The notes under the pieces: model-generated
Seen by the model: only the letters and a program-made list of their open reading frames with translations
What the model was told of the DNA's origin: nothing
The model's database searches: none
Made by a program: the position numbers and the translations under genes
In this document: piece after piece, positions 3,034 through 35,646 of the stretch
Position numbering within the stretch: the first letter of the stretch is position 1
Layout of the letters: each line of letters opens with the position of its first letter
Origin: Fimbriimonadaceae bacterium
GTDB lineage: Bacteria; Armatimonadota; Fimbriimonadia; Fimbriimonadales; Fimbriimonadaceae
Assembly (NCBI GenBank): GCA_025455775.1
Contig: JALOLT010000015.1
Location: forward strand, 1 to 37,234
Length of the DNA: 37,234 nt
Direction: 5' to 3'

Positions 3034-3049
3034 CTCTTTTCTTGCTTGG

Positions 3050-3238: not shown

Positions 3239-4162
3239 TTAGAACCGGAAAGGATTGATTCCGAAGCGCTCGAGGATGAAGAGCAAGTTCGCAACTGTGC
3301 CGATCTGATTGAAGTCTGCATTGCCGCTGTCCGGAATGTAAACGATGTCGCCTGGCTTGAGAAGAATGTTTTGCTTGGCGTCACCCCGGTTGTAGAAGCG
3401 AACCAGATCGACCTCGATGGAGAGGTAGTCGCCAGCCCGACCTGGCAGCTCGCGAATCACTTGGATCCGGCTAAATCGGGATCGGTAGGGGATTTCTCCG
3501 CCAGCCAGAGTGACTGCATCGAGAACCCTCATCTGCTCGCGATATTGGAACTGGCCAGCATTTCGCACCTGACCGATCACGTTCACTCTGTTCCGATTTT
3601 CCTGGGGAATGATCAGTTCGTCCCCATCCTCCAGAACGTAGTTTTGACTCAAGTCACCGCGAATGATCAGAGATTCCAGGTCGATAGGGATGAGTTCGTT
3701 CGTGGCTGCCCGGCGCAGGGTGGCGCGGCGCAGGTTTGCACTTCCATCGGTCGGAACACTGCCTCCTTGGGCCAGGAGAGTCTGAATCGTGTCACCTTGA
3801 CGGATTGGATAAACCCCAGGTCGGCCGATAAAACCGGAGACAGTCGCTCTCAAAACTCTAAAGGCTTCGATGGTCACGCTTACGATCGGATCATTGAGTT
3901 TGACCTTCGAGATGTAGAGATCCCGCAGATCCTTTTCCAGCTCAAAGGTGGTTTTGCCGGCTGCCTTGACGGGACCGACAAAAGGCGCGGAAATGAAACC
4001 ATCCTTGCCGACTGGCAAAGTTGCATTGATATCCAACTCTCGATAGACTTGGATACGGATCACGTCTTCAGCTTGCAAACGGTACGTTGCCGTTTGCTGC
4101 GCCATCACGATTTGAAGCATCGCGACAAGGGTTGCGAAGACCCAAAAGATTCTCATTCTCAT
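3239..4162 (-). CDS. Polysaccharide export protein, Wza-like with SLBB domains
   Basis: A 307-residue secreted protein. A signal peptide (MRMRIFWVFATLVAMLQIVMA, cleavage near residue 21) is followed by a Poly_export domain (about 27-110, YRLQAEDVIRIQVYRE and PFVGPVKAAGKT) and two SLBB domains (about 110-190 and 192-285, the second starting VNVIGQVRNAGQF and ending LLKPGDIVYIPD). Proteins of this type form or cap the periplasmic/outer-membrane channel for capsule or exopolysaccharide. There is no lipobox cysteine after the signal peptide, unlike E. coli Wza. It stands alone, flanked by its own terminator and a TATACT box, with no tyrosine kinase or polymerase genes beside it. The glycosyltransferase at 853-1968 could serve the same polymer, which is a guess. 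Confidence 0.9.
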   Translation of the reverse strand: MRMRIFWVFATLVAMLQIVMAQQTATYRLQAEDVIRIQVYRELDINATLPVGKDGFISAPFVGPVKAAGKTTFELEKDLRDLYISKVKLNDPIVSVTIEAFRVLRATVSGFIGRPGVYPIRQGDTIQTLLAQGGSVPTDGSANLRRATLRRAATNELIPIDLESLIIRGDLSQNYVLEDGDELIIPQENRNRVNVIGQVRNAGQFQYREQMRVLDAVTLAGGEIPYRSRFSRIQVIRELPGRAGDYLSIEVDLVRFYNRGDAKQNILLKPGDIVYIPDSGNADFNQIGTVANLLFILERFGINPFRF

Positions 4163-16482: not shown

Positions 16483-17172
16483 ATGATTCCAATCCGCGAC
16501 AACTTGCTTTCCCGGGAAGTGCCGGTTGTCACCCTCACCTTGATCGGATTGAATGTCTTGATCTATCTGTGGGATCGCAATGGGAGCCTGCTGGGAGAAA
16601 GCCAGGCCTTCGCGGACTTGGCGATGCGTCCGGCAGAGGTCGTCCTTGCCTTCACCCCGGCTGGCGACCCAGTTGCCCTCGGAAAGATTTTCACCTCCAT
16701 GTTCCTTCATGGAAGCCTCGCTCACATCATCGGGAACGTTCTGTTCTTGCAGGCCTTTGGGCCGGGAGTCGAGCGAGCCCTCGGGGGGGCCAGATTTACT
16801 CTCTACTATTTGGTTTGGGGGTTCCTGGCGGCAGGGGCTCACGTCTTTGTCGATCCTCGATCGGTAGTGCCGACTTTGGGAGCCAGCGGAGCAATAGGCG
16901 GAGTCCTGGGGGCCTACTTCCTCACTTTTCCCGGGAGCAAGATGAAGGTGGTTGTCCCGCCTCTCTTTTTCCTTCCCTTCAATCTGCCTTCCTGGCTCCT
17001 CTTGGCCCTGTGGTTCGTCTTTCAGATAGCTTTTCCCCAGCCTGGTGTCGCGAACTGGGCTCATGCCGGGGGGTTCATGGCAGGGATGGCAACGATTCTG
17101 TTTCTGGGAGGACGCCAAAAGGTCACGCGCCATCTGAAGCTGGAGGAGGATGAAAACTTTGACGACGATTAA
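16483..17172 (+). CDS. Rhomboid family intramembrane serine protease
   Basis: A 229-residue membrane protease. It starts MIPIRDNLLSREVPVVTLTLIGLNVLIYLW, typical of the family. The oxyanion motif FLHGSLAHIIGN holds His81 and Asn85, the catalytic Ser135 lies in GASGAIGGVLGAY, and the catalytic His194 in NWAHAGGFMAG. Six membrane segments are expected, followed by an acidic tail (EEDENFDDD). Active residues are complete. It overlaps the DUF5693 gene by 23 bases, which ties it to the envelope genes downstream; substrates unknown. Confidence 0.94.
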   Translation: MIPIRDNLLSREVPVVTLTLIGLNVLIYLWDRNGSLLGESQAFADLAMRPAEVVLAFTPAGDPVALGKIFTSMFLHGSLAHIIGNVLFLQAFGPGVERALGGARFTLYYLVWGFLAAGAHVFVDPRSVVPTLGASGAIGGVLGAYFLTFPGSKMKVVVPPLFFLPFNLPSWLLLALWFVFQIAFPQPGVANWAHAGGFMAGMATILFLGGRQKVTRHLKLEEDENFDDD

Positions 17173-18997
17173 GACTCCCTGGTGGATTTGGGTGACCGTG
17201 GCCTTCGTCGCTGCCGCCTCTCTCTATAGTATTTGGCCTCGGTTCAAGGCGGAGCGAGAAAATCGAGCAGTTGGACTCGCCTACGAGCTCACGACAATTC
17301 GAGATGGGGCGGCGGCAGATGGGACTCCCCTTCCTGCCGCTCTGAGAGAACTAAAGGAGCAGGGATTGACCGGTGTCGTTCTCGTCGAAGACAAGGTGAG
17401 CGACCTCGTCCTTCGCGGCCAGGCGAGCCTCACCAATACTTCCGCCGGGACACTCGTATCAGCGGCTCCTCATCGCGTACCAGTTCTTAGAAAACTGCTC
17501 AAAGCCAGGTTTGGGGAAGACTCCGTTGGAGAGAACTCACCGATCGGGACAACGAGACTTGGGTTCATCGCCAAGGTGGATGGGGCGACCCTTGGCGCTG
17601 CGAGCGCCGGGATCGATTCCATCGAAGCGACGGCAATCCGCCAGGCAGGACTTATTCTCATCGTCCGCCACGGCAACTCAGTCGGAGTTAGCGAAGCCAC
17701 GGTTCGTAGCACTCTTCAATCATCTGCCGAACTCGGGGCAACGGCGTTCCTGCCTCTCGGCGACCAAGTTTTGGGCAACCGAGAACTGCTGGAAGTCACC
17801 CAAGAAGCTCTTCGAGACAATTCCCTGAACTACCTCTCAGTTGAGTTTGGGAAGATCATCGGCGATGGTCGAATGATCAATGAGATACCAGAGAACACGA
17901 TTCGCTTTCACACGGCGCAACAAGTTGAGATTGACCGACTCAGCTTAGGCGGGGTAACCGAACGCTACGCAAAGGCTTTCCGAGAAAGGAATATCCGCTG
18001 GCTTCTTTTGCGGCCTGTGACCCTGGCAGAAGAGAATCCTCTGGCGAGCCTCAAGAAAAGTATTCAGATGATTAAAGGGGCTATCATCCACGAGGGGGGC
18101 GGTGTGAAAGAGCCGCGGCCCTTCGCAGAACCACTGACCGAGCAGTGGATTTTCCCGGTCATTGGCGTTTTGCTTGCTCCCTTGGTAGCCTTTGCTTTCT
18201 ATGGCTTTTTTCCCAAAATCTGGTGGGCAGTCGGTGTCGGACTTCTCTTTGCGGGGCTAGGAGGACTCTGCTGGTTTAGCGAGCCTCGACCATATGTGGC
18301 TTTAGCCGGAGCAGTTGCTCTCCCCATGGTCGGGTTCATTTGGGGGCTCTCGTCTCGGCCTCACCCAGTCTTAGGCTACCTCCTCATTTCGGTCTGTGGC
18401 CTGGTTGGTGGACTCTGCGTCTCTGGCCTACTGGTCGGACTGAAATTCATGATCCAGGCAGACCAGTTTTCTGGGGTGAAACTGGCCCACTTCGGCCCGA
18501 TCCTCCTTGTCGGGCTCTTTGCTCTGATCGTGTCTGGAAAGGGGCGAGAGGTCGCAAAGAGTCCGGCCCAGTGGGGAACCTTGGTGGGGGCCTTCGTTCT
18601 CACCGCTGGCGTTGCCTTTATGCTCTCCCGAACGGGAAACGACAATCCGGCCGGGGTCAGTGATCTCGAACTCAGGATTCGATCACTCTTGGATGCAATT
18701 CTTTTCACCCGCCCCAGAACCAAAGAGTTTCTGATTGGCCATCCCGCCCTCATCGTAGGTTTAGGGTTTTTGGCTTGGTCGCGAAGCAAGGAAAAGTGGT
18801 TCACCCCTGCTGCGATCTGTTTGACCATCGGAGCGATTGGCCAAGCGAGTGTCGTCAACACTCTCTGCCACCTCCACAGCCCGATTGATTTGGGCCTTAT
18901 CCGCATCGGGATTGGCCACCTCTTGGGGGCTATAATCGGCGTGGGGGCCTGGCTCGCAGTTTCGGGCTGGTACCGGGCGCGCGGGGAACAAGTATAA
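17150..18997 (+). CDS. DUF5693 family multi-pass membrane protein
   Basis: A 615-residue membrane protein of the DUF5693 type, which in many Firmicutes sits directly before csaB, as here. One N-terminal segment (about 12-30, WIWVTVAFVAAASLYSIW) is followed by a large extracytoplasmic domain (about 31-335: ALRELKEQGLTGVVLVEDKVSDL..., LRDNSLNYLSVEFGK, RNIRWLLLRP). About eight further membrane segments run to the C-terminus. Family knowledge: function not established, association with CsaB suggests a role in supplying or flipping the pyruvylated wall polymer. It overlaps the rhomboid gene and lies 4 bases before csaB, so it is almost surely co-expressed with both. Confidence 0.8.
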   Translation: MKTLTTIKTPWWIWVTVAFVAAASLYSIWPRFKAERENRAVGLAYELTTIRDGAAADGTPLPAALRELKEQGLTGVVLVEDKVSDLVLRGQASLTNTSAGTLVSAAPHRVPVLRKLLKARFGEDSVGENSPIGTTRLGFIAKVDGATLGAASAGIDSIEATAIRQAGLILIVRHGNSVGVSEATVRSTLQSSAELGATAFLPLGDQVLGNRELLEVTQEALRDNSLNYLSVEFGKIIGDGRMINEIPENTIRFHTAQQVEIDRLSLGGVTERYAKAFRERNIRWLLLRPVTLAEENPLASLKKSIQMIKGAIIHEGGGVKEPRPFAEPLTEQWIFPVIGVLLAPLVAFAFYGFFPKIWWAVGVGLLFAGLGGLCWFSEPRPYVALAGAVALPMVGFIWGLSSRPHPVLGYLLISVCGLVGGLCVSGLLVGLKFMIQADQFSGVKLAHFGPILLVGLFALIVSGKGREVAKSPAQWGTLVGAFVLTAGVAFMLSRTGNDNPAGVSDLELRIRSLLDAILFTRPRTKEFLIGHPALIVGLGFLAWSRSKEKWFTPAAICLTIGAIGQASVVNTLCHLHSPIDLGLIRIGIGHLLGAIIGVGAWLAVSGWYRARGEQV

Positions 18998-19001
18998 ATT
19001 T

Positions 19002-20075
19002 GTGGCAAAGTTAGTTTTGGCCGGATATTTTGGGGCGGGAAACCTCGGAGATGACGCGATTCTCATGGGGTTTGCGAATGCTATCGAGACGCGGGGCCAT
19101 GGATTTCAGGTCATCGCCAAGAGCCCCGAACTTCTCATGAGAAACCTGGGAATCAGGGGACTCTTGCGATCAGACTTGGGTGAGATCCGGGAGGCACTCC
19201 AATCCTCTGACGCCCTTGTCTTTCCTGGCGGAAGCATTTTCCAAGATGTCACGAGTGTGAAAAGCGTCGCCTACTACGCCAACCTCGTTGCGATGGCAAA
19301 AAAAGCGAACAAGAAGGTCATCCTTCTGGGGCAGGGAGTCGGGCCACTGAATCGATGGTTGGGCAAGAGGTTCGCGGTTCGGGCCTTTAACTCCGCCGAT
19401 GCCATCGCGGTCCGCGACCCTGGCAGTGCTCAAACCCTGAAATCACTGGGGGTAAGAGTAAACCCTCGCCTTACTGGCGATCTGGCTTACCTTTTGCCCA
19501 AGCCACCCCCAGCAACCAATACGGCTGGGTTTGGCGTTGCGGGAATGAAGACCATCGCGGTGAACGCTCGGCCTTTCGGGAATGACAAAGGAAGGGGAGT
19601 CGTCACTCTCTTTTCTGGGCTGGTGCGGAAGCTCTATGCTGCCAACTATGTGCCAGTTATGCTCGAGATGGATGCGGCGGAAGATCGCCCCATTATCGAA
19701 GCGATTAGTAAGGAAAATGGCGGCAAGGTACCGGAAATCAAGGGGCTTACAAGCCCCAGGCAGCTGCAAGAGCGCATCGCAAGAGTTGAGGCAGTCATCG
19801 CAATGAGGCTCCATGCTGGCATCCTGGCCACAACAGTCGGCATCCCCCCCTATATGGTGAGCTACGACCCAAAAGTAGCAGCATTTTCGAACGCATTGGG
19901 CTTCTCGGCCCCTCCTAGCATTCAGGGCCTGACGGTCGAACGAGTCTTCGACGGTTTTCAGTCGTTCATAAAAGAGAAGGAACGAACTGCCGCCTCGCTG
20001 GAACGCAAGGTCAGCGAACTAGCCCAATCGGCCCTCCTCAACATCGATGTGCTGGAAGAAACTCTCCGCCGCTAA
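19002..20075 (+). CDS. csaB: Polysaccharide pyruvyl transferase CsaB
   Basis: A 357-residue enzyme that adds pyruvate ketal to a secondary cell-wall polymer, making the ligand for S-layer-homology (SLH) domains. Visible family motifs: LAGYFGAGNLGDDAIL at the start, VFPGGSIFQD, ILLGQGVGPL, VRDPGSAQTLKSLG, and MRLHAGILATTVGIPPYMVSYDPKV near residues 265-290. It starts at a GTG 4 bases after the DUF5693 stop and overlaps the next gene by 29 bases. In diderm Terrabacteria CsaB is thought to serve attachment of the outer membrane through SLH-bearing porins. No SLH protein is encoded in this window. Confidence 0.94.
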   Translation: MAKLVLAGYFGAGNLGDDAILMGFANAIETRGHGFQVIAKSPELLMRNLGIRGLLRSDLGEIREALQSSDALVFPGGSIFQDVTSVKSVAYYANLVAMAKKANKKVILLGQGVGPLNRWLGKRFAVRAFNSADAIAVRDPGSAQTLKSLGVRVNPRLTGDLAYLLPKPPPATNTAGFGVAGMKTIAVNARPFGNDKGRGVVTLFSGLVRKLYAANYVPVMLEMDAAEDRPIIEAISKENGGKVPEIKGLTSPRQLQERIARVEAVIAMRLHAGILATTVGIPPYMVSYDPKVAAFSNALGFSAPPSIQGLTVERVFDGFQSFIKEKERTAASLERKVSELAQSALLNIDVLEETLRR

Positions 20076-22662
20076 ACCAAGCCTGACGCGAACGGCCCTG
20101 GTTGCTGGCCTTTTTGTGTGCCAGAGTTTGGCTCTTGCCAAATCGCAGGATCCGGCTCCCGAGCAAGATCCAGTGCAACCGGCTGAGCCACCGATCGAGC
20201 AACCAAAACCACAACGCAATCCCAGCTGGTTAGAGCAGCAACTTCGAAAAGTCCGGGTGACAGGGTCGCGGTTCCTCACTTACCAAATCATGTCGGTCAG
20301 TGGCGACCGAGAGGCCTTTGAGTTCTCAAACTTTGGGGGTCTCGGGGGACAAAGGTTCTCCGACTTAGGCTATACAAGGTTCGAGGGTCGAGGAGTCTTT
20401 GGCGTCCTTAACTTCAGCTTTAACCTTCAGGACAGTCGATTCCAAGATCCCCAGGGGGAGCGAATCAGCCTGGATTGGAAGACCGGGCCTTGGACTTTCA
20501 ATCTGGGGGATATCCAGGGCTCGCTTCTCAACACGAACCGCTACGCCAGCTTTAATCGAACTCTGAGAGGGGCCTCGGTTGGCTATCGCCATGGACGGCT
20601 AGAGGGGAAAGCCCTGCGAAGCGAGACGAGAGGAGAAGCGCGAACCATCACCCTGAACGGGAACAACTCTGCTGGCCCCTATTATCTCCAGAGTTCCCAG
20701 ATCATTCGGGGATCCGAAAGGATCGCAATCGACGGAGTCTTGCAGGTTTTTGGCGAAGACTATTCGATCGACTACGACCTGGGGGCCATTACTTTCGTGA
20801 ATCGCCAAACCCTCACGGCGAAGGTCGTCGCCCCGACGAGCACAATCGTTGCCACCTACGAGTCCTTTAATTTCAACGGCTCCAGCGGCACAGTGGAGGG
20901 TATCGGCCTCGCCTACGACATGGGTCGCGCTGGCCGCATCGGAGTCACGGGAATGAGACAGCTCCAAGGCGGGCAAGGAAGGGATTCCTCGCGCCTTGAA
21001 AAGTTCCAGGGATTCGGCCCGCCTTCCAGTCGCTACACCCTTCAATTCCTCCCCCAGCCTGGAACTCCGATCGTGATCCGTATTGACGGTGTGCTCCAAA
21101 CAGAAGGGATCGACTACCGATTCGACCCTGCGAACCCCAGTGTCTTTTTCATCAACCGTTTTGTTCTGAGCACGAGCACTGTGGACGTGCTCTACACTCC
21201 CCGCATCGCGACGGCAACCCCTGGCGACCGCGAAACCTTTGGGCTGGACTACCGCCTGAATCTCGGATCCCAAACTCAGATCACTGCCTCGACCGCGCGG
21301 GGCAGCAGCACTGGCCAAGAAGCGCGAAGTGGTACTGCCACTGCCTTTGGAGCCTCGACCAAGGTTGGCCCCTGGAGTTTCTCAAGTCAAGTGCGAAATG
21401 TCACCGATGGTTTTGTCACAGTTCAAACAGTGGGGCTGGATCGAAACGAAAAGGCGTGGGACGTGACGTTTGGCTATTCACCGAGCGAGGCCCTTCGCTA
21501 CAGTCTGTCCCACAGCAATTCAGCGATTGCCAACAGAACCGGAACCACGTCTCAATCAGGTCGGTTCGTGAGAACAGGGGCAACTCTGGATGTCACTCCT
21601 CAGCTGGAAAAGAACTGGCCACTGCAGCTCGCCTTAACCAGAACCTCCAGCCAGACCCCCGGTCGCCAAACGTCAGTCGATGCTCTGAGCCTAACGACTG
21701 CCAAACAGGTCGGCAAATGGGGCACCAGGTTTGGTTTGGAAACCTCCCGGGTTTCCGGGGCAACCAAGGCAGACCTTCAAAGCCTGATCTTCAGAAACCT
21801 CTATCAGGCAAGTTCTGCTTGGTTCTTTGGCTTCGATGCAAGCCTGAGTCAGGTGAGAGCCGCCGGCAAGAGTGGGACTGGTTATGACGTGACAGGAACC
21901 ATCATTTACCGAGGCGGTGAAAAATTCAACGCGAGATTTACCGCCACGGAATCTGACTCTGGCGATGTGACAGACCTCCAGAACTTCGACAATGGCTTCG
22001 GCTTTGGGTTCAACGGGAACGGTTTCAGCTCCGGGGCTGAACTCGGTCTGACAACGGGAGTCACCAGCGGGAGGTTCTATACTCTGACCGGCGATTGGCA
22101 AGTGACGGATCGACTTTTCGTGAATGGGGCAGTCTCTCTGCGGCGATCGACTGGCAGCATCAGCTCAAACTCCGACACGAGGGGACTCAGTGGCGGTCTC
22201 GACTATCGCGTGAACGACGCTCTCGCTCTTCAGGGCCAGCTAAACTTTAGCGAAACTCAATTTGTGGGAAGCCCCTTGCGCAGCAGTGCGACAACCCTCA
22301 ACTTTGGCGCGGATGGCAGACCAGCCGGGAGGCTATCTTACCGACTGAACCTGAGCGCCCTTCTGAGCGGGGGTAATAGCCAGTTCAGGCAAAACAGCAT
22401 CGCCTATGATATCTCGACCAGCTACTTCCTGGGTCAAAGGCAAAACCTTGTCTTTCGCTACTCAAAAGGGACGACAACTGGCTACTACCCCCAGGATGAC
22501 TTAGACTGGGCCCTGACCCACCAGATTCAGATTTTTAGCAGCCTCTCGTTCAATACGAGTTACCGTTTTAGAGATGTTAAAAACCGTGATCTTAGCTTTA
22601 ATAGCGGCGCCTATCGGTCTCGGGGCTTTGCCTTCGAATTGGCCTTTAACTTTGCCCAGTAA
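20047..22662 (+). CDS. Putative outer-membrane beta-barrel protein
   Basis: An 871-residue exported protein overlapping the end of csaB. The signal peptide is about 1-31 (LTRTALVAGLFVCQSLALA). A Pro/Gln-rich linker (PAPEQDPVQPAEPPIEQPKPQ) follows. After that come alternating, aromatic-rich strands to the end, closing with FAFELAFNFAQ; the chain lacks cysteine after the signal. Two internal copies of a motif of the type I-IDGVLQ--G-DY-(I/F)D----I-F occur at about 225-270 and 343-390, as seen in some large envelope proteins. These features fit an outer-membrane barrel with about 24 or more strands. Placement after csaB and before LPS transport suggests export or display of surface material. There is no plug or POTRA domain, and no SLH domain. 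Confidence 0.7.
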   Translation: MCWKKLSAAKPSLTRTALVAGLFVCQSLALAKSQDPAPEQDPVQPAEPPIEQPKPQRNPSWLEQQLRKVRVTGSRFLTYQIMSVSGDREAFEFSNFGGLGGQRFSDLGYTRFEGRGVFGVLNFSFNLQDSRFQDPQGERISLDWKTGPWTFNLGDIQGSLLNTNRYASFNRTLRGASVGYRHGRLEGKALRSETRGEARTITLNGNNSAGPYYLQSSQIIRGSERIAIDGVLQVFGEDYSIDYDLGAITFVNRQTLTAKVVAPTSTIVATYESFNFNGSSGTVEGIGLAYDMGRAGRIGVTGMRQLQGGQGRDSSRLEKFQGFGPPSSRYTLQFLPQPGTPIVIRIDGVLQTEGIDYRFDPANPSVFFINRFVLSTSTVDVLYTPRIATATPGDRETFGLDYRLNLGSQTQITASTARGSSTGQEARSGTATAFGASTKVGPWSFSSQVRNVTDGFVTVQTVGLDRNEKAWDVTFGYSPSEALRYSLSHSNSAIANRTGTTSQSGRFVRTGATLDVTPQLEKNWPLQLALTRTSSQTPGRQTSVDALSLTTAKQVGKWGTRFGLETSRVSGATKADLQSLIFRNLYQASSAWFFGFDASLSQVRAAGKSGTGYDVTGTIIYRGGEKFNARFTATESDSGDVTDLQNFDNGFGFGFNGNGFSSGAELGLTTGVTSGRFYTLTGDWQVTDRLFVNGAVSLRRSTGSISSNSDTRGLSGGLDYRVNDALALQGQLNFSETQFVGSPLRSSATTLNFGADGRPAGRLSYRLNLSALLSGGNSQFRQNSIAYDISTSYFLGQRQNLVFRYSKGTTTGYYPQDDLDWALTHQIQIFSSLSFNTSYRFRDVKNRDLSFNSGAYRSRGFAFELAFNFAQ

Positions 22663-22705
22663 CGAGATCGAGATTTGTGCGTAACATCATCAGGGAACAA
22701 TCCAA

Positions 22706-24010
22706 ATGAACCGTGCCTTCACCTTCCTCTCCATCGTCGCGAGTCTTGTCATTCTTTCCGGATGTGGCGGAGAGACTGCGCCCCGCACTGCCACCATCTC
22801 TGGCACAGTGCTGGATCGGGATTTCAATCCCGTTCGCGATGCCACTGTCACAGCCGGAAGCCAAAGCACCAGAACCAGCTCGACCGGTAGCTTTACCCTT
22901 GCCTCTGTTCCGGCACGTCGACTCGAGGTCGTGGCAACCATCACCCAGGGCGGAACGAACTTCAGAGGCAGAACGTGGGCTCTCAACTTCGACGGTGAAC
23001 GAACCAACAACGTCAACATCGTGGTGAAACCAACTAATGCGATGGGGAGGGTGATCGGAACCGTACGAGATGCTCAGGGGTTCGTTCTCGAAAATGCCTC
23101 CGTCTTCGCCTTTGACGGAGTCGGATCCAGCCAAAGAACGTTCACAGATAGCAACGGCAACTTCACCTTGAGCGACCTCGGGGCAGGAACCTCTTATCGA
23201 ATCAGCGCGAGCGGTAGGAGTTTCCGCTCGGATCAGACCGATGTCACGGTCACAGCGGGAGGCACTGTGACGCGAAACTTCATCCTTCGCCAACCGACAA
23301 CGGTGAATCCTCCCGCTCCGACTGGGCTTTCGGCTACCGCGTGGACCGTGAATCCCGACACAACTCGTTCCCTTGGGCAGGGTTCTACTGCTTTGGCTTG
23401 GGTCAAGAACTTCTACCGCGACAACCGGCGTTCTGGGGGGCCGAGAACCAGGAACTTCGTGAGTGATCGGTCGGTCGAAGTCGAGCTCTTCTGGGACTCA
23501 AATCAATTCCCCGACCTCTACGGCTTCCCTATCTATCGGGCATTTGGAGCCAATGGTTCCCTGAGTTCTATCGACTTTATTTTCGAGCCCTTGGCCTCCT
23601 ACTACTACGACATGGGCTCTCTCCAACCCAACACCACCTACAGCTACTCCGTCTCCAGTGCCACAACCCTCTACCCAGACTTTCCTTCGGCTGAAAGTCC
23701 TCTCTCAAGTCGGGTCACTGCCTCGACCTTGGGAATCTTGAATTTGGGCAACGTTAGCTTTGGCCCCTTGACCTTTAATTGGTTCGCTGGGAGCGGAGCA
23801 ACCAGTCACGTCGTCTTCTTGTTCGACCGATTCCCTGGCGTGGGAGTGGATAGCATCTGGAACACGTCTGGATCCCCATCGGCAGGTTTCAGTCAGGTCT
23901 ATACTGGGCCCGCTCTGCAATCGGGTCGAACCTACTACTACATCGTTTTGGGCCTTGCAAACGGCAATTCCAGCCGAACGATTAGCCAGATAGGATCGTT
24001 CCAATTATGA
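22706..24010 (+). CDS. Lipoprotein with two carboxypeptidase-regulatory-like domains
   Basis: A 434-residue exported lipoprotein: MNRAFTFLSIVASLVILSGC ends in a lipobox (LSGC, Cys20). Two CarboxypepD_reg-like beta-sandwiches follow (about 28-107, ISGTVLDRDFNPVRDATVTAG...STGSFTLASVPA; about 113-195, VIGTVRDAQGFVLENASVFAF...SNGNFTLSDLGAG). After a Pro linker (TVNPPAPTGLSAT) two fibronectin-III-like regions are likely (about 200-335, with LQPNTTYSYSVSS; 340-434, with LQSGRTYYYIVLG). Such domains are structural and bind sugars or proteins; no catalytic site is seen. It is 43 bases after the barrel gene and 13 before the next gene, and is a candidate surface partner of the barrel. Confidence 0.78.
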   Translation: MNRAFTFLSIVASLVILSGCGGETAPRTATISGTVLDRDFNPVRDATVTAGSQSTRTSSTGSFTLASVPARRLEVVATITQGGTNFRGRTWALNFDGERTNNVNIVVKPTNAMGRVIGTVRDAQGFVLENASVFAFDGVGSSQRTFTDSNGNFTLSDLGAGTSYRISASGRSFRSDQTDVTVTAGGTVTRNFILRQPTTVNPPAPTGLSATAWTVNPDTTRSLGQGSTALAWVKNFYRDNRRSGGPRTRNFVSDRSVEVELFWDSNQFPDLYGFPIYRAFGANGSLSSIDFIFEPLASYYYDMGSLQPNTTYSYSVSSATTLYPDFPSAESPLSSRVTASTLGILNLGNVSFGPLTFNWFAGSGATSHVVFLFDRFPGVGVDSIWNTSGSPSAGFSQVYTGPALQSGRTYYYIVLGLANGNSSRTISQIGSFQL

Positions 24011-24023
24011 GGCCTTCGAAAAG

Positions 24024-26711
24024 ATGCATGGAATCATAACGCGCAGCAGGACAGCCTTGGCCGTCCTGCTCACATTTGGCTTAACCTGTTTTGGCATGGC
24101 GGCTGAGCTGCGCGTGGAACTCGCAGCAACGACTCGCTCTGCGGACGACGTCTCGCAGCAAGTCGAAGCAGCAGTTCGTCACCACGCCAGGGTCACAGCC
24201 CAACTCTCCGACAGAGTTCGACTCGCCAGGGGCGACAGGTCCACCTTCTTCCTCCCTCTCAGGGTGGTTCTGACCCGCAATGGAGAGGCCCTGCCATTCC
24301 CGAGCAGGACGCGAAATGGAGGTGGACTCTCTCTGAGCTTCGAAAGCTCAGGTCCACGGGCATTTCCGACTGAATACCGCACCCTGCTCGAAAATCTTTT
24401 CACCAACGCGACCCCGACCCTCGATGCAGTCTTCGGAACCCCGAACCAGGGCGGCACTGTGAAAGTGCTGAATTTTGATGGCGACATCCAGGCGCGATTG
24501 GCGGTTGCAGGAGGCTACTACGTTGCCAATGCCCCAGGAGGGCCAGAGATCCGCTTCCCGATCTACCAAAGCGCAGCGAGTGCATCTGTGAACTTTGTCC
24601 ACTGTCTCTTGCTGGCTTATCGGGGATCTGCCACAACTCCCTTCGACGCCTGGAACGACGGCTTGGTAAGGGCCGCCACGATGCAAGTTGTCCGAACCCC
24701 TGGCGTTGTGCCAGTTGTCACCTCGGAACAGATCGAAGGGGTTTTGGATAGCCTCTACGACGTTTCATCCCTCTATGACTGGTCCAACCATCCCGGGCTT
24801 GGAGCCCCGACTTTCATTGCCCCAAACCTCCTCAACACTCCCATTCCTCCCGGCGGCAGCACTGGCGGAGCCTTTTTGCTTCGCTACCAGATGGCAGGAA
24901 CCGCTTTTGCAAAGGTTCTCGCTCAGTACCCTGGCTTTGCAGCGGAATTTAATCGCAATTTTTATGCGTCGCCACTCTCCTATCAAACCAGTGTTCAACT
25001 TGAAACTCTGGCCCAGACTGCCTTAAATAACATCCAGCTGCCGCCAGGAGCGACCGTGGAGGGCCTCCCCTTTGCCGAATGGGCAGAGCGGCAAGCCATC
25101 TTGGATGTCGCACCGAATGCCGGGCTAAAGCTGGTGCCTCAAGCTTTTCCCATCGACCCAACACCAGGTTCAAGCGACTTTGGTGTCTTCGGCATCGTCC
25201 TGAACGCCTTCCTCTCAGACCCTCTTGGGAACGAGACTCTGCTTGGGGGACGCTCCTACCCCCTTTACTGGCGACCTGAGTTTGTGCGGTTCTTCACCAC
25301 CAGCCAAGACGATATCTTGTTCTTGGGAGGTGGCTACGGAGCCGTTGCGCCGAACTTCCCCGGTGCGACTTTTGGAGGAGCCCCCTATCGGGTGACGGTC
25401 GATTTGCCCTATCAAGGCAGGGTCGCGAGACTTCACCTTCCGGCTGGAGCAGTTGCGACCGGCAGTAACCCAGTACCCAACAACTTCTATGGGGTTTTGG
25501 TGGGGCTACCCTCGTCCGACACAGGGGGTCTCTTTGTCAGTGCTACCTATCCCGGGGGAGCGATCCCTCCCCAATCGATTCGGAATCGTGCCTTCGGCTT
25601 TCGCGTCAACGACCCGAGCTTTGACCGGGCCCAGTCGGTTGTGATTACAGTCAGGCGGGAGGGCGTCGTCGATCCTCTCCTAACGAGAGTTTTGAACAAA
25701 GGAGTCGGCCCCCTCGCTGCTGTTTTGACGACCCCCGATAGCGATGCCACTTTCACTCTCACAAGGCCAGGGAGACTCGCCTTTCTTGGAATTCCCTACC
25801 AGCCTTACCGGCCCTATGCTCCTGACCTTCTTTCCTCTACCCCTGGGGCCACTTTGGTTGCGCGGTGGAACAGCTCACTCGGAAGGTATGACCTCTTTCC
25901 GCGCGAGAGCGAACTGAGCCGCGGGCTAGGCTACTTCGTCAGAGGCGCAGGCCTCTCCAGCCAGGTGGTGCGAGGTCGCCACGAACCCAATACTCCCCTA
26001 GCGGTTTCCCTCCAACCTGGTTGGAACATGGTCACTGCCCCATCGCTCGATCCTGTGGCCTTGAGTCAGGTTCAGGTCACAACGACGACCCAAGCGATGA
26101 CTCCCTGGAACGAGGGGCTTGGGATCCTACTCGGCAACACGATGTTCCGCTTTGTGCCAGATCCCCTGAACCTCGATGGAGGAACGTTCCAACCAGCCAC
26201 CCTCTTCGAGCCAGGCCAGGCCTACTTCGTCCGGAGTCTTTCCCCAGAAGGAGGAGTCCTTCTCTTTGGAGTCGGCACCAGGCAAACGCGACTGGGCAAC
26301 GTGATTGTACCAGCGGGGAACCCTGACTGGCTGACCAGCGTGACCTTAACCTCTCGCCTGAACCACTCCACCACTGTGCAGATCGGGCAGCATGGATTCG
26401 GCCTCACTGGTTACAATCCCCGGCTGGATGACACGATGCCACCTGCCGTCGGGGGTCTTCAAGCGACTGTCTTTGCCGACACTGGCTACTACCGCAAACT
26501 CATGCCGCGCGGTCGAGGGATGATCTTCCGGATTAGGCTGGATGGCCTTCAGCGAGGGGAACGGTATGTCTTGAGCCTTCAGGGCCTCGTGCGCCAACAA
26601 AACCTACAAGTTTTTGACGAACGGTTCAACCAACTCGTCAGGGTCGATTACCGCAGAACAGCGATTCTGAGCGGAGAAGGTTCCGTCTGGCTGAGGATCG
26701 TGGTGCGATGA
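24024..26711 (+). CDS. Large secreted protein, possible degenerate peptidase plus beta repeats
   Basis: Unrecognised 895-residue secreted protein. The signal peptide is about 1-27 (ALAVLLTFGLTCFGMAA). The N-terminal half (about 100-370) is mixed alpha/beta. At 193 the segment FVHCLLLAYRG followed 14 residues later by FDAWNDGLVRAATM has the layout of a gluzincin metallopeptidase (HExxH, then EG) but with the Glu and second His lost, so if related it is inactive. The C-terminal half is beta-rich; two similar modules occur at about 575-650 and 655-745, each starting with a PG(R/W)- phrase (PGRLAFLGIP, PGWNMVTAP) and ending in a GYFVR/AYFVR phrase. It overlaps the next lipoprotein gene by 4 bases, giving a coupled trio of surface proteins. 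Confidence 0.7.
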   Translation: MHGIITRSRTALAVLLTFGLTCFGMAAELRVELAATTRSADDVSQQVEAAVRHHARVTAQLSDRVRLARGDRSTFFLPLRVVLTRNGEALPFPSRTRNGGGLSLSFESSGPRAFPTEYRTLLENLFTNATPTLDAVFGTPNQGGTVKVLNFDGDIQARLAVAGGYYVANAPGGPEIRFPIYQSAASASVNFVHCLLLAYRGSATTPFDAWNDGLVRAATMQVVRTPGVVPVVTSEQIEGVLDSLYDVSSLYDWSNHPGLGAPTFIAPNLLNTPIPPGGSTGGAFLLRYQMAGTAFAKVLAQYPGFAAEFNRNFYASPLSYQTSVQLETLAQTALNNIQLPPGATVEGLPFAEWAERQAILDVAPNAGLKLVPQAFPIDPTPGSSDFGVFGIVLNAFLSDPLGNETLLGGRSYPLYWRPEFVRFFTTSQDDILFLGGGYGAVAPNFPGATFGGAPYRVTVDLPYQGRVARLHLPAGAVATGSNPVPNNFYGVLVGLPSSDTGGLFVSATYPGGAIPPQSIRNRAFGFRVNDPSFDRAQSVVITVRREGVVDPLLTRVLNKGVGPLAAVLTTPDSDATFTLTRPGRLAFLGIPYQPYRPYAPDLLSSTPGATLVARWNSSLGRYDLFPRESELSRGLGYFVRGAGLSSQVVRGRHEPNTPLAVSLQPGWNMVTAPSLDPVALSQVQVTTTTQAMTPWNEGLGILLGNTMFRFVPDPLNLDGGTFQPATLFEPGQAYFVRSLSPEGGVLLFGVGTRQTRLGNVIVPAGNPDWLTSVTLTSRLNHSTTVQIGQHGFGLTGYNPRLDDTMPPAVGGLQATVFADTGYYRKLMPRGRGMIFRIRLDGLQRGERYVLSLQGLVRQQNLQVFDERFNQLVRVDYRRTAILSGEGSVWLRIVVR

Positions 26712-27583
26712 AAGACCTGAAGCTGATCCGAAATCTCTGCCTCTTGCTCCTTGTCGTCTTCGCCATCGGGTGTGGCGGAGGAGGAGGAGGGAGTGCCCCT
26801 GCGAACGTCCAGGCCTTTGGCAATATACTGTGGATCGAATCTGGCCAAGGAACTGTTCCCGCCAGTACCGTCAGGATTGGGGAAGTGGCTGGTCAAACTG
26901 CTTCTGATGGCTTCTTTAACCTGTCAGTGCCGCCAGGTGCCACGAGCCTTACTGTGACCTACACTCCCAGCGTCGGGTCGCCAGTCGTTCGAACTTTCAG
27001 TTTCTCAGCCCTCAATGGGACGAGGGATCTCGGGGAGCTTTGGATTGGCCCTGCGTCTATCGTCGTACAAGGTCGCCTCGTAGATTCGACCACCTCAGTC
27101 CCAGTTCCTGGCGGGCAAGTCAACTTGGCTGGGCAATCGGGAACCAGTGGTTCAGATGGTCGATTCACTCTCAACGGCGTCGCATTCTCGCCGAACAATA
27201 CAAGCATTTTTCTGACTCTTGAAGGTCAGGCACTGCGCACTGGCTTTTTTGCGACAACCTTCGGCCTCCCCACCATCCCAGTGGGGGGTGTTTTGGATGT
27301 GGGGGACGTGGCGATGGTGCCGACTGGCACGACTGATCCTCCCCCCTTGCCGTTCAACGTCCGGGGAGTCGTCTCCCCGACCGGAGGCGGATCGGTGGTG
27401 GAGGTTCTGTCTGGCGCGACCCCCATTCGCACTGTGACAGCTGACACGTCTGGGAATTACTCGGTCTGGATCCCAGAAGGAACCTACACGATTCGGGCAA
27501 CGAGTGGCACCAGAACCGGTTCGACATCCGTCACAATCACAGACGTCGGACAAGTGGTAACGGTGAATGTCACGCTCAACTAA
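26708..27583 (+). CDS. Lipoprotein with carboxypeptidase-regulatory-like repeats
   Basis: A 291-residue exported lipoprotein. MKDLKLIRNLCLLLLVVFAIGC ends in a lipobox (AIGC, Cys22), followed by a GGGGGGS spacer. Three similar beta-sandwich segments follow, each with a 'variable peptide + G-F-L' end: about 35-112 (SDGFFNLSVPPGATSLTVTY), 115-205 (VVQGRLVDSTTSVPVPGGQVNLAG...SDGRFTLNGV) and 215-291 (VRGVVSPTGGGSVVEV...SGNYSVWIPEGTYTIRATSG). It is coupled to both neighbours (4-base and 17-base overlaps). It is the second lipoprotein of this kind in the run, after 22706-24010. No catalytic residues are recognised. Confidence 0.78.
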   Translation: MKDLKLIRNLCLLLLVVFAIGCGGGGGGSAPANVQAFGNILWIESGQGTVPASTVRIGEVAGQTASDGFFNLSVPPGATSLTVTYTPSVGSPVVRTFSFSALNGTRDLGELWIGPASIVVQGRLVDSTTSVPVPGGQVNLAGQSGTSGSDGRFTLNGVAFSPNNTSIFLTLEGQALRTGFFATTFGLPTIPVGGVLDVGDVAMVPTGTTDPPPLPFNVRGVVSPTGGGSVVEVLSGATPIRTVTADTSGNYSVWIPEGTYTIRATSGTRTGSTSVTITDVGQVVTVNVTLN

Positions 27584-28967
27584 GCAGGTTTTTAAGACGG
27601 TTGGTTTTGCCGCAGTCGTCGTCGGGATTCTCGGCGCGTCTGGCTATGGCATCATGCGCATCATGGCGACCGACAGCCTGCAGCGATTCCGGGAACCAGG
27701 GCCGCCTCCCGATCAGGGGCTCGTTGTAAGAGACTTCGAAATGAAGACCTACAACGGCGACAAACTCGTCGCCTACGCCAAGGTAGATCAGGCCATCATT
27801 CGCAAAGACCGCAGCCAGATGGATCTTGTGGGCATTCAGGAAGGCTGGTTCCTGACGCAAGATGGCGAGAAAATTGACTTTGAGGCTGAATCTGCCGTCT
27901 ACCAGGTGTTCAGCAAGAATCTGCTGGCCGAACAGGGGGCGCGCCTTCGCGGCAAGGACTTTGACCTGAAAGTGGCGACCTTCACCTACCAAGGCAACAC
28001 GGAGGTCGTATCGGTCGAGGGCAAAGTGACAGGCACCCTCTTTGGCGGTGAGTTCGAAACGGAGAACATCAGGATCGAGGTGGCAGAGGGACGCCTCACG
28101 TCCGGCACCTTTAGCTGGCAGGGGACTCCTCAAGTCGAGGGCCAGCCCCAGCGCACTTCCTGGAACTTTAGGGGTGCGACGATCGAGACCGTAGGCGGAG
28201 TCAGCACCTTCACCGAAGGAATAGCAACCAGCAGTGACACGATCATTCGCGGCAAAAAGATCGTCTTCGATCGAAACGAAGACACCATTACCGCCGAGGG
28301 AGACGTGAAGTACTTTGGTGTGGATGCGAATATGACTTGCGCCAAAGCGGTTGTCACTCGCCGCGATCGCAGAGTTCTGCTCACAGGCCGCGTCAATATG
28401 CTGATCAAGCCTGAGACGGAAACTGCCCCGAAGGAGGTCGAAATCCCTCCCTTGAAGCCATTCGTCCCAGATGAAATCTCCGTAAACCGACCAGCGGCGC
28501 CGCGAGACGAAGCTCAGCGAAAGCAAGATGACGAGATTCGAGGCACAGATAACCTACGCCAATTTCCCATTGCGATCATCGCCGAGCGAGTGGAGTACTT
28601 TTACCGCCGGGGGGAGAGGAGAGCGACCATTACCGGCAGCCCCCAAGCCCGCCAAGAACTGGGGAGTGACCGCTGGCGCCTTGTTTGGTCGAACCGGGCG
28701 GAATGGGATGGGGAAAAAGATCGCCTGAAGCTCTTTTCCCGCCAGGGGGCAAAAGACGTCCGCATGAGGAACTCGCTGGGCGATGACATGCGCGCTACCT
28801 TCATCGAGGTCTCAACCCGCAAAAACGAGGATCTACTCTCGGCAAAAGACGCAGAGGGCACGATGAACCTGGACGACGACGAGGATCTGCCTCGCTCCCC
28901 GGCAACACCCCCTCCTGGCTCGTCTCCCTCTGCCCCCCCACTCCAGGGACCGATCGGGCGAGACTAA
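27567..28967 (+). CDS. LptC/LptA-like lipopolysaccharide transport protein
   Basis: A 466-residue single-pass protein. The N-terminal membrane segment (about 10-32, TVGFAAVVVGILGASGYGIMRIM) is followed by an LptC-like part (about 50-170, LVVRDFEMKTYNGDKLVAYAKVDQAII...AESAVYQ). Two OstA/LptA-like parts come next (about 200-285, TFTEGIATSSDTIIRGKKIVFDRNEDTITAEGDVKYFG; and 340-445, AERVEYFYRRGERRATITGSPQA), then an acidic, Pro/Ser-rich tail. LptC and LptA form the periplasmic bridge that carries LPS from LptB2FG to LptD. A single protein carrying both folds would be unusual. It overlaps the preceding lipoprotein gene by 17 bases. Assigned by pattern of repeated 'a-G-v-' strands, without searching. 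Confidence 0.75.
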   Translation: MSRSTKQVFKTVGFAAVVVGILGASGYGIMRIMATDSLQRFREPGPPPDQGLVVRDFEMKTYNGDKLVAYAKVDQAIIRKDRSQMDLVGIQEGWFLTQDGEKIDFEAESAVYQVFSKNLLAEQGARLRGKDFDLKVATFTYQGNTEVVSVEGKVTGTLFGGEFETENIRIEVAEGRLTSGTFSWQGTPQVEGQPQRTSWNFRGATIETVGGVSTFTEGIATSSDTIIRGKKIVFDRNEDTITAEGDVKYFGVDANMTCAKAVVTRRDRRVLLTGRVNMLIKPETETAPKEVEIPPLKPFVPDEISVNRPAAPRDEAQRKQDDEIRGTDNLRQFPIAIIAERVEYFYRRGERRATITGSPQARQELGSDRWRLVWSNRAEWDGEKDRLKLFSRQGAKDVRMRNSLGDDMRATFIEVSTRKNEDLLSAKDAEGTMNLDDDEDLPRSPATPPPGSSPSAPPLQGPIGRD

Positions 28968-28979: not shown

Positions 28980-29696
28980 CTAGCGCGTGCGGGGATCCCG
29001 CAAAAACTTGACGCTCCCATCGAGGAAGAGGCGGTTCCGACCGCCAAAATGAGGCGTTAATCCCCGGAGCGCCGGAGCAACAGTCGGAATTGTCGCCGGG
29101 AAGTAGGGATCCACCGCTAGCTCGACTTCGCTCACACTTTGAGGATTTCCGACCTGAGCGTTTCCGGCCACCTGCAAATCTGCTAAGGCCTGATCCGGTG
29201 ACTTGCCCCAAAAGTTATCCAGAGGGGTCGGGTTTTGGATCCGGTCAAACCGCCACATCCAATAAGTGCTTCGCGGGCGATCCGAATCGAGCCCCGCTTG
29301 TTCCACCTGCACGACCCCTCGGAAAAGAGCAGCAATCGACGGGCAGGTCAAAATCGCTTCCCCATTGTAAAGGGAACTAACCGAATCGAACCAGCCGCTG
29401 CGAGGGTCAGAAGGGGGCCAGGAAGTCCAGGGCCGATAGCCAAGCTCCTGCTTCAGATCCCTGCGATCTGGCATCAGGTCGTCGTTGTCGCCAAGGTAGA
29501 GGGAAAAAACTGTACCAACCTGGCGGAGGTTGCTGAGACAGGTTGCCCGGTTTGCCGCCCCTTTTGCCTGAGCAAAAACGGGAAACAAAATCGCCGCCAA
29601 TATCGCGATGATCGCAATCACCACCAGGAGCTCAATCAGGGTGAAGCCTCGGGTCACACCCTCTCTACGACGAAAACAAAGAAGGCGAATGAGCAT
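28980..29696 (-). CDS. Type II secretion/type IV pilus-like pseudopilin
   Basis: A 238-residue protein with a prepilin-type N-terminal cleavage/methylation signal: basic leader of about 16 residues, then [19 protein letters not shown] (Glu at +5). [39 protein letters not shown] follows, the pattern common in Armatimonadota and Planctomycetota. Near the end [20 protein letters not shown] is the typical 'H-x9-DG' processed-tail motif. Such proteins are cut by PilD-like peptidase and assemble as pseudopili or surface filaments; large paralogue families are usual in these phyla. It is monocistronic in this window, convergent with the LptC/LptA-like gene. The start ATG at 29696 gives a 16-residue leader, reasonable for the class. 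Confidence 0.9.
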
Positions 29697-33078: not shown

Positions 33079-33118
33079 AGGTTCTCACCAGCAGGAGTTA
33101 AACTGTTGGTGAGAACTT
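33079..33118 (+). promoter_or_regulatory. Perfect inverted repeat in the pheA-cdaA gap, overlapping the cdaA start region
   Basis: GTTCTCACCA (33081-33090) and TGGTGAGAAC (33107-33116) are perfect 10-bp arms with a 16-base loop; A-T and G-T pairs extend it to 33079 and 33118. The second arm holds GGTGAG, the nearest ribosome-site-like sequence, and ends directly at the TTG start (33117). The loop carries AGGAG (33092-33096). It could be an RNA hairpin controlling cdaA translation or a DNA operator shared by the divergent pheA and cdaA promoters. Confidence 0.7.
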
Positions 33119-33959
33119 GAACGAATTATTCACCGACTTTTCCTCGCGAACACTTGTCACGATCGTCGACATTTTGCTTGTCACGTTCCTGATCTTTCGC
33201 CTGCTCTTGTTGGTGCGCGGACAACGTGCGTGGCGCGTGGTGATCGGGATTGCTGTTTTTGTTCTTGCTCTTTGGCTCAGCGATGTCTTCGGACTGCGAA
33301 CCTTAAACTGGTTGCTCGACAAGGCATCCTTGCTCGCCCCGGTCGCTTTGGTCATTCTCCTGCTTCCCGAGTTGCGCCAGGCGATCGAAGGCATGGCTCG
33401 GCTCGGGATTTGGAGCGAACGATTTTTGGGGACAAGGCGCAGTATCGGCGACTTGACCCTGGAGGAGATCGTGAGAGCCACCCAGGTCTTAAGCGGCCAA
33501 AAGACGGGAGCGATCATTATCATCGAGCGCAACAACCCGCTTGACGATGTTGCTTCAACCGGGATCCCCATTCAGGCGAAGGTCTCTGCTCCCCTCCTGG
33601 AATCGATCTTCTACGGCGAAAACCCCTTGCATGATGGAGCGATCGTCATCCGCTTTGACCGCATTTTGGCTGGCGCCTGTCGCCTCCCTCTTTCTGAAAG
33701 CCAGAACCTGAGCAACAACCTCCACATGCGTCATCGAGCAGCAGTTGGGATTACAGAACAAAGTGACGCCCTGGCCCTCGTTGTGAGTGAGGAGCGCGGC
33801 ACAATCAGCATCTGCACTGGGGGAGTCTTGACTCCTATTGGCCCAAACGACGATCTGCGCGAGATTCTTCGCCGCGAAGTCGGGGAGGATGACTCCAAGC
33901 CCAAGGGGGGCAAAGCAATTCTGACCAAATCAGCTGAGCCAAAAGAGGTGACCCAGTGA
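33117..33959 (+). CDS. cdaA: Diadenylate cyclase CdaA
   Basis: A 280-residue membrane enzyme that makes c-di-AMP from two ATP. Three N-terminal membrane segments (about 13-33, 39-57, 70-84) precede the DAC domain (about 105-250). Its motifs are present: DGA at 173-175 (PLHDGAIVI) and RHR at 205-207 (HMRHRAAVGI). Normal length for the family. The TTG at 33117 is the first possible start after an in-frame stop (33099), and no ATG occurs before residue 93. It overlaps cdaR by 4 bases (GTGA). c-di-AMP controls potassium/osmolyte balance and wall homeostasis in many Gram-positive and other Terrabacteria. Confidence 0.95.
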   Translation: MNELFTDFSSRTLVTIVDILLVTFLIFRLLLLVRGQRAWRVVIGIAVFVLALWLSDVFGLRTLNWLLDKASLLAPVALVILLLPELRQAIEGMARLGIWSERFLGTRRSIGDLTLEEIVRATQVLSGQKTGAIIIIERNNPLDDVASTGIPIQAKVSAPLLESIFYGENPLHDGAIVIRFDRILAGACRLPLSESQNLSNNLHMRHRAAVGITEQSDALALVVSEERGTISICTGGVLTPIGPNDDLREILRREVGEDDSKPKGGKAILTKSAEPKEVTQ

Positions 33960-34873
33960 CATTCGGCAAGTTCGCCCTCTTTTTGGGCTCCCTCGCGATC
34001 GCCCTTCTCATGTGGCTTCAAGTGGTCGAGAAAGTTTCGACAAAAGCCATCACTGTCTCACTTGAGCTCACTGGATTGCCCCGAGGATTGGTGATCCCCT
34101 ATCCTCAAGAGTACATCAACGTCACTGTCAGAGGCAGTAACTCCGAAGTCAGTCGCCTCGACCCTTCACTTGTGAAGGCAAGAATTAACCTTTCTGGCGC
34201 AAAACCAGGGCAAGTCGACAAGAGAGTGATCCTCCAGCCTCCCCCAGGCACCAGACTCGAATTTACAGCCAACACCCCTCAAATCCGCCTTATCATCGAG
34301 AGAGAGGCAGAGATAGAGATGCCTGTCACTGTCATCCCCCAAGGGGTTCCCATCGACGGCTATGTCTATAACGGTGCCACAACTTTTCCCCGAACAGTTA
34401 AGGTCATGGGGGCAGAATCTTTGCTTCCCAGAATCAGCCAGGCTCAAGCGGTTCTCAACCTCGTGAGCCTCCAGCCAGGAGATGCCCCCTCGGCAGAAAT
34501 TCGATTGATTGACAACGAGAACCAGCCAGTCCCTTCGACCAGGATCATTCCCGATCGCGTTGCGATCACCCCGAGCTTAGAACTCGCCCCTAGTGCGAGA
34601 CGCGTCCTTGTGGTGCCTACATTCGTCGGCCAACCTCGGTTTGGTTACCAAGTTCGGAATTACACAATCGAACCGCCCCAGGTTGAACTTCGCGGCCCAA
34701 GTGCAGTTTTGTCCGGCAGATTGACGGTCGAAACTGAGCCGCTCACTTTGACAGGGCTCAATGAAAGTCGAACCAGAACCGTTCCGCTCCGCCTGCCAAC
34801 CGGGGTGACCGCAGACGTGAGGGAAGTGACGATTACCCTTGAGATTGTCGCAGTTCGCAGCGGAAACCCATGA
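33956..34873 (+). CDS. cdaR: YbbR-domain protein CdaR
   Basis: A 305-residue protein with one N-terminal membrane segment (about 5-22, FALFLGSLAIALLMWLQV) and an extracytoplasmic part with three YbbR-like beta repeats (about 30-110, 112-190, 195-300), with phrases such as PQEYINVTVRGSNSEVSRL, and PPQVELRGPSAVLSG. CdaR partners regulate CdaA activity. The GTG start overlaps the cdaA stop; its own stop overlaps the GNAT start. This is the usual cdaA-cdaR order. Confidence 0.9.
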   Translation: MTFGKFALFLGSLAIALLMWLQVVEKVSTKAITVSLELTGLPRGLVIPYPQEYINVTVRGSNSEVSRLDPSLVKARINLSGAKPGQVDKRVILQPPPGTRLEFTANTPQIRLIIEREAEIEMPVTVIPQGVPIDGYVYNGATTFPRTVKVMGAESLLPRISQAQAVLNLVSLQPGDAPSAEIRLIDNENQPVPSTRIIPDRVAITPSLELAPSARRVLVVPTFVGQPRFGYQVRNYTIEPPQVELRGPSAVLSGRLTVETEPLTLTGLNESRTRTVPLRLPTGVTADVREVTITLEIVAVRSGNP

Positions 34874-35646
34874 GAGAAATTCGGCCGATCCACGAGCATG
34901 AGAGCGAGACTTTTCTCAGACTCCTGTGTGACTGTTTTGAACTCGACATGTCTCGGGCCCAGGGCGTCTTCTTCACGGAGCCGTTCTTTGATCTGCGGCG
35001 CAAATGGGCCCTCTTTGAGGACGGAGTGATGCACTCGATTCTGACGACGACTCCTCTTGAGTTTGGATGGGGCAAGGCCATCGGAATCGCAGGGGTAGCG
35101 ACGGCGCGCGAGTTCCGCAAAAAGGGTCTTGGCCAGGCTCTGCTCGAGGAGGTCTTGCTATCCGCTGCAGCAGATGGCGAGGGTGCGGCCCTCCTCTTCG
35201 CCCATGAAACTGTGGTCTACGAAAGGGTCGGCTTCGACGTGATTGACGAAGTCGTCCAAGCAGAGATCGTGCGAGACGAATCCTGTGGCGAAGTGCGACT
35301 TCTCGACTTTCCCACGGTTCAAAAGCTCTACACAGAGTGGGCCTCTGACTCTCCCGATCGGTTGCGTCGCGATAACAAACGGTGGACCTACTGGCAATGG
35401 GTTCCTCGCCCCTGCGAAGGCCTCGAGGGAGGCTATCTCTGCCAAGAAGGCCTGATGGTGCGCGAGGCTGTGATCTCCCCCGATCGATCCGGATGGCCAG
35501 TCCCGCCTGGGAGTCAGTTCTTTGGCTTACGCTCGATGGCGCAGAAGATGGGAGTGCCTCTGCGCGGAACTCAGCGCAGAGAACTCTTGCTCATGGCCTA
35601 CCGCTTCCCCAGCCTGCCAGAGATGTTTATGACAGACCAGTTCTAA
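34870..35646 (+). CDS. GNAT acetyltransferase (Eis-like)
   Basis: A 258-residue acetyl-CoA-dependent acetyltransferase. The acetyl-CoA site is clear: IGIAGVATAREFRKKGLGQALLEEVLLSAAADGEGAALLF at about 58-100, with the R-x-x-G-x-G/A loop. The C-terminal half (about 130-258) is an unfamiliar second lobe, resembling shortened Eis-like proteins. Substrate cannot be told. The ATG overlaps the cdaR stop. It occupies the place where glmM usually follows cdaA-cdaR. It ends TTCTAATAAG, two stops nearly in a row, just before the integrase. Confidence 0.85.
   Translation: MREIRPIHEHESETFLRLLCDCFELDMSRAQGVFFTEPFFDLRRKWALFEDGVMHSILTTTPLEFGWGKAIGIAGVATAREFRKKGLGQALLEEVLLSAAADGEGAALLFAHETVVYERVGFDVIDEVVQAEIVRDESCGEVRLLDFPTVQKLYTEWASDSPDRLRRDNKRWTYWQWVPRPCEGLEGGYLCQEGLMVREAVISPDRSGWPVPPGSQFFGLRSMAQKMGVPLRGTQRRELLLMAYRFPSLPEMFMTDQF

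Follow-up and report, generated by a model that had tools for sequence, protein, structure and literature searches.

SprA is the 36-strand type IX translocon of Bacteroidota. According to a review, type IX secretion is specific to Bacteroidetes and SprA is the largest outer-membrane barrel identified (PMC7463736). For a second system, the OmpM/SlpA tether of Deinococcota, Cyanobacteriota and other diderm Terrabacteria, both the layout and the SLH-pyruvate logic have been described (PMC10628300, PMC9388160). Here, we present a computational analysis of an envelope locus from a Fimbriimonadaceae bacterium (Armatimonadota) that bears on both systems. It lies on contig JALOLT010000015.1 (C9) of a genome of 3.0 Mb and 98% completeness, and the window is this whole stretch of 37,234 nucleotides. 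Our preferred interpretation is a locus shared by three functions, the new part of which is a predicted SprA-like barrel together with its likely surface partners.

An earlier note on this DNA had described a run of seven genes from the DUF5693 gene to an Lpt-like gene, and all seven open reading frames were recovered on the forward strand at the coordinates it gave. Their junctions are, in this order, a gap of 4, an overlap of 29, gaps of 43 and 13 and overlaps of 4 and 17 bases. The run is one gene longer than had been noticed, since a rhomboid gene overlaps the DUF5693 gene by 23 bases. Promoter and terminator scans gave numbers as expected by chance. The eight genes are the following:

16483 to 17172, forward strand: rhomboid-family intramembrane protease (Pfam Rhomboid, 2e-27), which opens the conserved run.
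17150 to 18997, forward strand: membrane protein of the DUF5693 family, presumed to work with CsaB (PF18949, 346.8 bits).
19002 to 20075, forward strand: CsaB polysaccharide pyruvyl transferase (TIGR03609, 222.8 bits).
20047 to 22662, forward strand: predicted SprA-like giant outer-membrane barrel of 871 residues (AlphaFold2 model, structural match, TIGR04189 in relatives).
22706 to 24010, forward strand: lipoprotein of 434 residues with carboxypeptidase-regulatory-like and fn3-like domains (domain matches; lipobox LSGC).
24024 to 26711, forward strand: secreted multidomain protein of 895 residues (AlphaFold2 model; M1-like pseudopeptidase, macroglobulin- and Ig-like domains).
26708 to 27583, forward strand: lipoprotein of 291 residues (its lipobox Cys is invariant and precedes poly-Gly; same presence pattern as the barrel and the 895-residue protein).
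27567 to 28967, forward strand: putative fused LptC-LptA-like periplasmic protein of lipopolysaccharide (LPS) transport (LptC and LptA matches below cut-off; separate genes in the outgroup).

The barrel was modelled with AlphaFold2 from 51 sequences (pLDDT 85.7, pTM 0.73). DSSP assigns to this model 35 strands of at least 8 residues, not counting two small domains that are inserted near residues 225-274 and 316-383, and there is one further candidate strand. Foldseek returned many outer-membrane barrels, including SprA and LptD, and VIA-align ranks SprA first (Z 17.8, 550 residues, root-mean-square deviation 5.7; alternatively 640 residues at 8.1), with the alignment reaching across model residues 64-869. 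Porins align over about 240-305 residues with Z up to 16.5, and among solved structures only SprA aligns over most of the barrel. Additionally, the SprA family model TIGR04189 matches 44 of the 51 barrel relatives at 1e-3 or better, the best match (2e-21, in three stretches) being found in locus L135. The domain held in common with SprA is about 100 residues long and corresponds to positions 592-687 of the TIGR04189 profile. Part of it also resembles phage tail proteins, which makes it a module that is not private to SprA. One distant barrel, used as query against sequences of the Protein Data Bank (PDB), found nothing. From the model and the profile matches we take the barrel to be remotely related to SprA in fold and probably by descent, short of family membership. 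The earlier note would have been refuted by a barrel from a known and unrelated family; no such family was found for it, yet SprA is a remote known relative. A literature search found no paper connecting an Armatimonadota envelope with SprA or type IX secretion. Contig C85 of the same genome (L151:3630-7199, reverse strand) encodes another large protein, without family assignment, that contains the short domain of the barrel (profile positions about 183-235); its relatives of about 1,140-1,250 residues occur in most of the genomes surveyed for the barrel, including genomes without it.

The model of the 895-residue protein (pLDDT 85.7, pTM 0.86) reveals an M1 aminopeptidase fold at residues about 48-363 (Z 13.0, 225 residues, root-mean-square deviation 3.9) that is followed by macroglobulin- and Ig-like domains. 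The zinc site typical of M1 enzymes, HExxH-x18-E, is missing here and HExxH occurs in none of 30 relatives. Most relatives keep a histidine at position 193 and, 19 positions further, an acidic residue at 212, which is glutamate in nearly all of them and aspartate in the window protein. For the window protein itself there is no match in Pfam and NCBIfam, and profiles compared with PDB sequences gave nothing below 0.08. In relatives outside Fimbriimonadaceae (family f1) and the sister family f2, the C-terminus carries a further domain of about 100 residues, with a match to FlgD_ig and a weak one to the C-terminus of PorU, the sortase of the type IX secretion system. The region of residues about 585-814 recurs in other large proteins (e.g., C154:12783-13109 of the same genome), with up to six further proteins per genome in family f3; as a barrel-specific signal it was rejected because it is found also in genomes without the barrel.

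The distribution of these genes was followed in 37 genomes, chosen to take in every genome of the class Fimbriimonadia without a barrel match; weak matches to single domains in other proteins were excluded, and in G103 only part of the barrel is present, at the end of a contig. The barrel, the 895-residue protein and the 291-residue lipoprotein are all present in 21 genomes and all absent in 16, with no mixed genomes, and this identical pattern holds also where the three genes are unlinked (G002, G009, G012, G035). CsaB was detected in 36 of these 37 genomes, and so was DUF5693. When mapped onto a DUF5693 tree, lack of the barrel set requires seven changes, five of them among genomes at least 90% complete. 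The gene of the 434-residue lipoprotein stays beside those of CsaB or LptC-LptA where the barrel is lost, and in five genomes (G018, G026, G028, G029, G112) it still follows csaB with its usual flanking genes for the barrel and the 895-residue protein gone, so that a single deletion does not explain the losses. The carboxypeptidase-regulatory-like domain scores above the Pfam cut-off in this lipoprotein and below it in the 291-residue one.

The earlier note expected the genes after csaB to be conserved as neighbours, and this is borne out in related genomes and also in Armatimonadota outside the class. The same order returns in many divergent genomes at about 25-70% protein identity, which means that the arrangement is not due to chance. 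Its most stable part is rhomboid-DUF5693-CsaB-barrel: the rhomboid gene lies directly 5' of DUF5693 in nearly all Fimbriimonadia loci holding the latter, DUF5693 adjoins CsaB in most of the class and the barrel follows both in most of 40 class genomes examined. Among named Fimbriimonadia loci, csaB is immediately 5' of the barrel in 48 of the 61 with enough upstream sequence. The block of 434-residue lipoprotein, 895-residue protein, 291-residue lipoprotein and Lpt-like protein often comes next (the last three all in the locus in 25 of the 45 with enough downstream sequence), and its placement varies, being inverted in L045, upstream on the other strand in L034 and elsewhere at a distant site. 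Loci of Armatimonadota from outside the class (L135, L139, L142, L143, L146, L148) retain much of the same order. Every listed match of the barrel is titled Armatimonadota, a subgroup of it or unassigned bacterium, and the named relatives among the matches listed belong to Fimbriimonadaceae, Fimbriimonadales and other Armatimonadota. In the single-contig genome of Uphvl-Ar1 (G085; L069/L130:9728-12431) the barrel frame is split in three pieces within an otherwise intact cluster.

The neighbours of csaB could be merely co-located housekeeping and surface genes, the barrel and the 895-residue protein having separate jobs and only a common lineage history. This would suit the cluster's two halves, which come apart in several genomes, and the small number of independent losses (4-5 among well-complete genomes). 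We consider it quite unlikely in view of the exact three-gene co-occurrence over 37 genomes, unlinked cases included, the retention of the intervening 434-residue gene and the presence of the same block in other Armatimonadota.

The two genes upstream of the barrel are well defined. CsaB exceeds the equivalog cut-off of TIGR03609 (213.1 bits), and the DUF5693 match lies far above the Pfam cut-off of 29 bits and covers residues 40-605, i.e. the full-length family. DUF5693 was found in 4 of 14 control genomes (three above cut-off); Thermus, Deinobacterium and Thermotoga are among the positive ones and have SLH proteins too. No paper on DUF5693 was found in a literature search. The CsaB proteins of family f3 (G098, G103, G107, G110) reach higher TIGR03609 scores than those of other class members, and their genes often lie apart from the barrel gene, as though they stemmed from another lineage.

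The earlier note had seen no SLH protein, which is correct for the locus; a search of the whole genome with PF00395 revealed one on contig C120 (30.6 bits, cut-off 20.8). Its sequence shows a signal peptide, an SLH domain with the motifs HW, GVLIG and TRFE, a stretch that looks like coiled coil and the first section of a strand-rich region; since the frame is cut off by the end of the contig, the barrel part is incomplete there. A single protein thus combines SLH domain, coiled coil and barrel, as in the OmpM-type tether, and relatives of it occur in all 18 genomes tested, in some with the SLH domain itself below threshold. This protein accounts for what CsaB serves. CsaB is found above cut-off in 13 genomes that have neither the barrel, the 895-residue protein nor the 291-residue lipoprotein, and is therefore independent of these three. 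The direct adjacency of csaB and barrel had led to the proposal that the barrel or the lipoproteins are unusual CsaB clients, binding pyruvylated wall polymer without SLH domains; with an SLH-OmpM client in the genome and CsaB persisting without the barrel set, this is highly improbable and was dropped.

The last gene of the run has LptC and LptA matches below cut-off only, and profile A3 matches LptA structures at 3e-4. In L135, L139, L143 and L146 the last part of the block consists of two genes, one LptC-like and one LptA-like, which in L143 and L146 score above the cut-offs of PF06835 and PF03968. Because separate genes occupy the same place in these outgroup loci, the window gene (27567-28967) is best read as an LptC-LptA fusion. 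This putative fusion and LptF/G were each found in 111 of 113 class genomes, and the genome studied here encodes LpxC and LptF/G. The closeness of the barrel to the fusion, and LptD among its Foldseek matches, raise the question whether the barrel replaces LptD in LPS insertion. We regard this as extremely improbable and rejected it: of the 16 genomes without the barrel, LptF/G was detected in all and LptC-LptA in 14, the exceptions being G005 and G082, whose genomes are incomplete, so the barrel is missing from LPS-positive genomes, and it has no LptD_N match. It is true, as had been pointed out, that the locus unites genes for wall-polymer pyruvylation, a large barrel and LPS transport, but nothing was found in support of the physical link between wall polymer, outer membrane and LPS that was suggested with it.

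From these data the locus would be an old envelope-assembly neighbourhood of Armatimonadota that holds three functions. DUF5693 and CsaB would prepare the pyruvylated wall polymer, to be read by the OmpM-type SLH porin encoded elsewhere. The fused LptC-LptA protein would form the periplasmic bridge of LPS transport. The barrel, the 895-residue protein and the 291-residue lipoprotein may represent one surface unit, in which the SprA-like barrel sits in the outer membrane, the pseudopeptidase protein reaches the cell surface through or on it and the lipoprotein is its outer-membrane partner. Export or display of the 895-residue protein by the barrel is inferred from fold, linkage and co-occurrence, and the three proteins presumably act together physically. 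Taken as a whole, this three-function explanation has in our judgement an even chance of being right. A further step, proposed only tentatively, is that Armatimonadota possess an outer-membrane translocon of SprA descent, independent of the type IX machinery of Bacteroidota, that exports a pseudopeptidase surface protein with, ancestrally, a FlgD-like tail.

Several points weigh against export by a SprA-like barrel. The Z score of SprA (17.8) is barely above that of porins (about 16), and aligned length alone sets SprA apart. In TIGR04189, with its criterion of 200 bits, the window barrel reaches 27.5 and the best relative (L135) 75.1 bits. Barrel profiles compared with PDB sequences gave no SprA match, only OmpG at E 0.2-0.3. 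The locus contains no type IX secretion genes, and no search of the genome for motor or shuttle genes, PorV, Plug or PorKLMN was made. Neither Fimbriimonadaceae, to which the window belongs, nor family f2 has the FlgD-like domain, which therefore cannot be a universal export signal. Finally, a sign test on well-supported branches has four independent pairs, all concordant (p 0.125).

The main rival to export is a surface uptake system: the barrel would be a large channel for nutrients or polymers, to which the 895-residue protein and the lipoproteins would contribute surface capture or a lid, much as in SusC-SusD pairs. The two domains inserted in the barrel model could plug it, surface lipoproteins and a pseudoenzyme suit substrate binding, and repeated loss of the barrel set with other envelope genes kept fits an accessory transporter. 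However, no match above cut-off was found to a TonB-receptor plug or to the SusD family, and both the number of strands and the length aligned point to SprA rather than to TonB receptors, which leaves uptake a serious but doubtful alternative.

If Armatimonadota do have a SprA-descended translocon, the SprA kind of giant barrel predates type IX secretion or lies outside it. A small SprA-like barrel with a fixed set of partners in a phylum of diderm Terrabacteria would open a route to the origin of the translocon and offer a simpler model of it. Moreover, genes for pyruvylation and LPS transport are kept beside the barrel in a phylum whose envelope has hardly been studied.

Other genes of the window include a prepilin-like protein with N-methylation motif (28980-29696, reverse strand), which adjoins the cluster end convergently; in several other loci, too, related pilin-like genes are found close to the barrel. 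One overlapping run (33117-35646, forward strand) encodes a CdaA-type di-adenylate cyclase, a YbbR protein and a GNAT acetyltransferase. Genes for tRNA-Thr and tRNA-Tyr lie beside a Wza-like polysaccharide export protein (2959-3135 and 3239-4162, both reverse strand).

Compared with known systems, the locus and its genome share with the Lpt bridge the LptC-like and LptA-like parts as well as LptF/G and LpxC, but in Fimbriimonadia both parts appear fused and are placed near csaB. With the OmpM/SlpA tether they share CsaB, DUF5693 and an SLH-coiled-coil-barrel protein; here the tether is encoded elsewhere, whereas the barrel beside csaB has no SLH domain and belongs to another family. The 895-residue protein resembles M1 aminopeptidases in the fold of residues about 48-363 and differs in the lack of HExxH, with one histidine and one acidic residue retained in most relatives. 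From SprA/Sov the barrel differs in size (871 residues versus a family model of 2,319 positions), in a score far under the family cut-off, in phylum and in its partners, which are carboxypeptidase-regulatory-like lipoproteins; type IX genes are absent from the locus. Alike are the predicted single-chain barrel of about 35-36 strands, for which SprA is the best structural match over the whole barrel, the shared domain of about 100 residues and a linked secreted protein that in distant relatives ends in a FlgD-like C-terminal domain.

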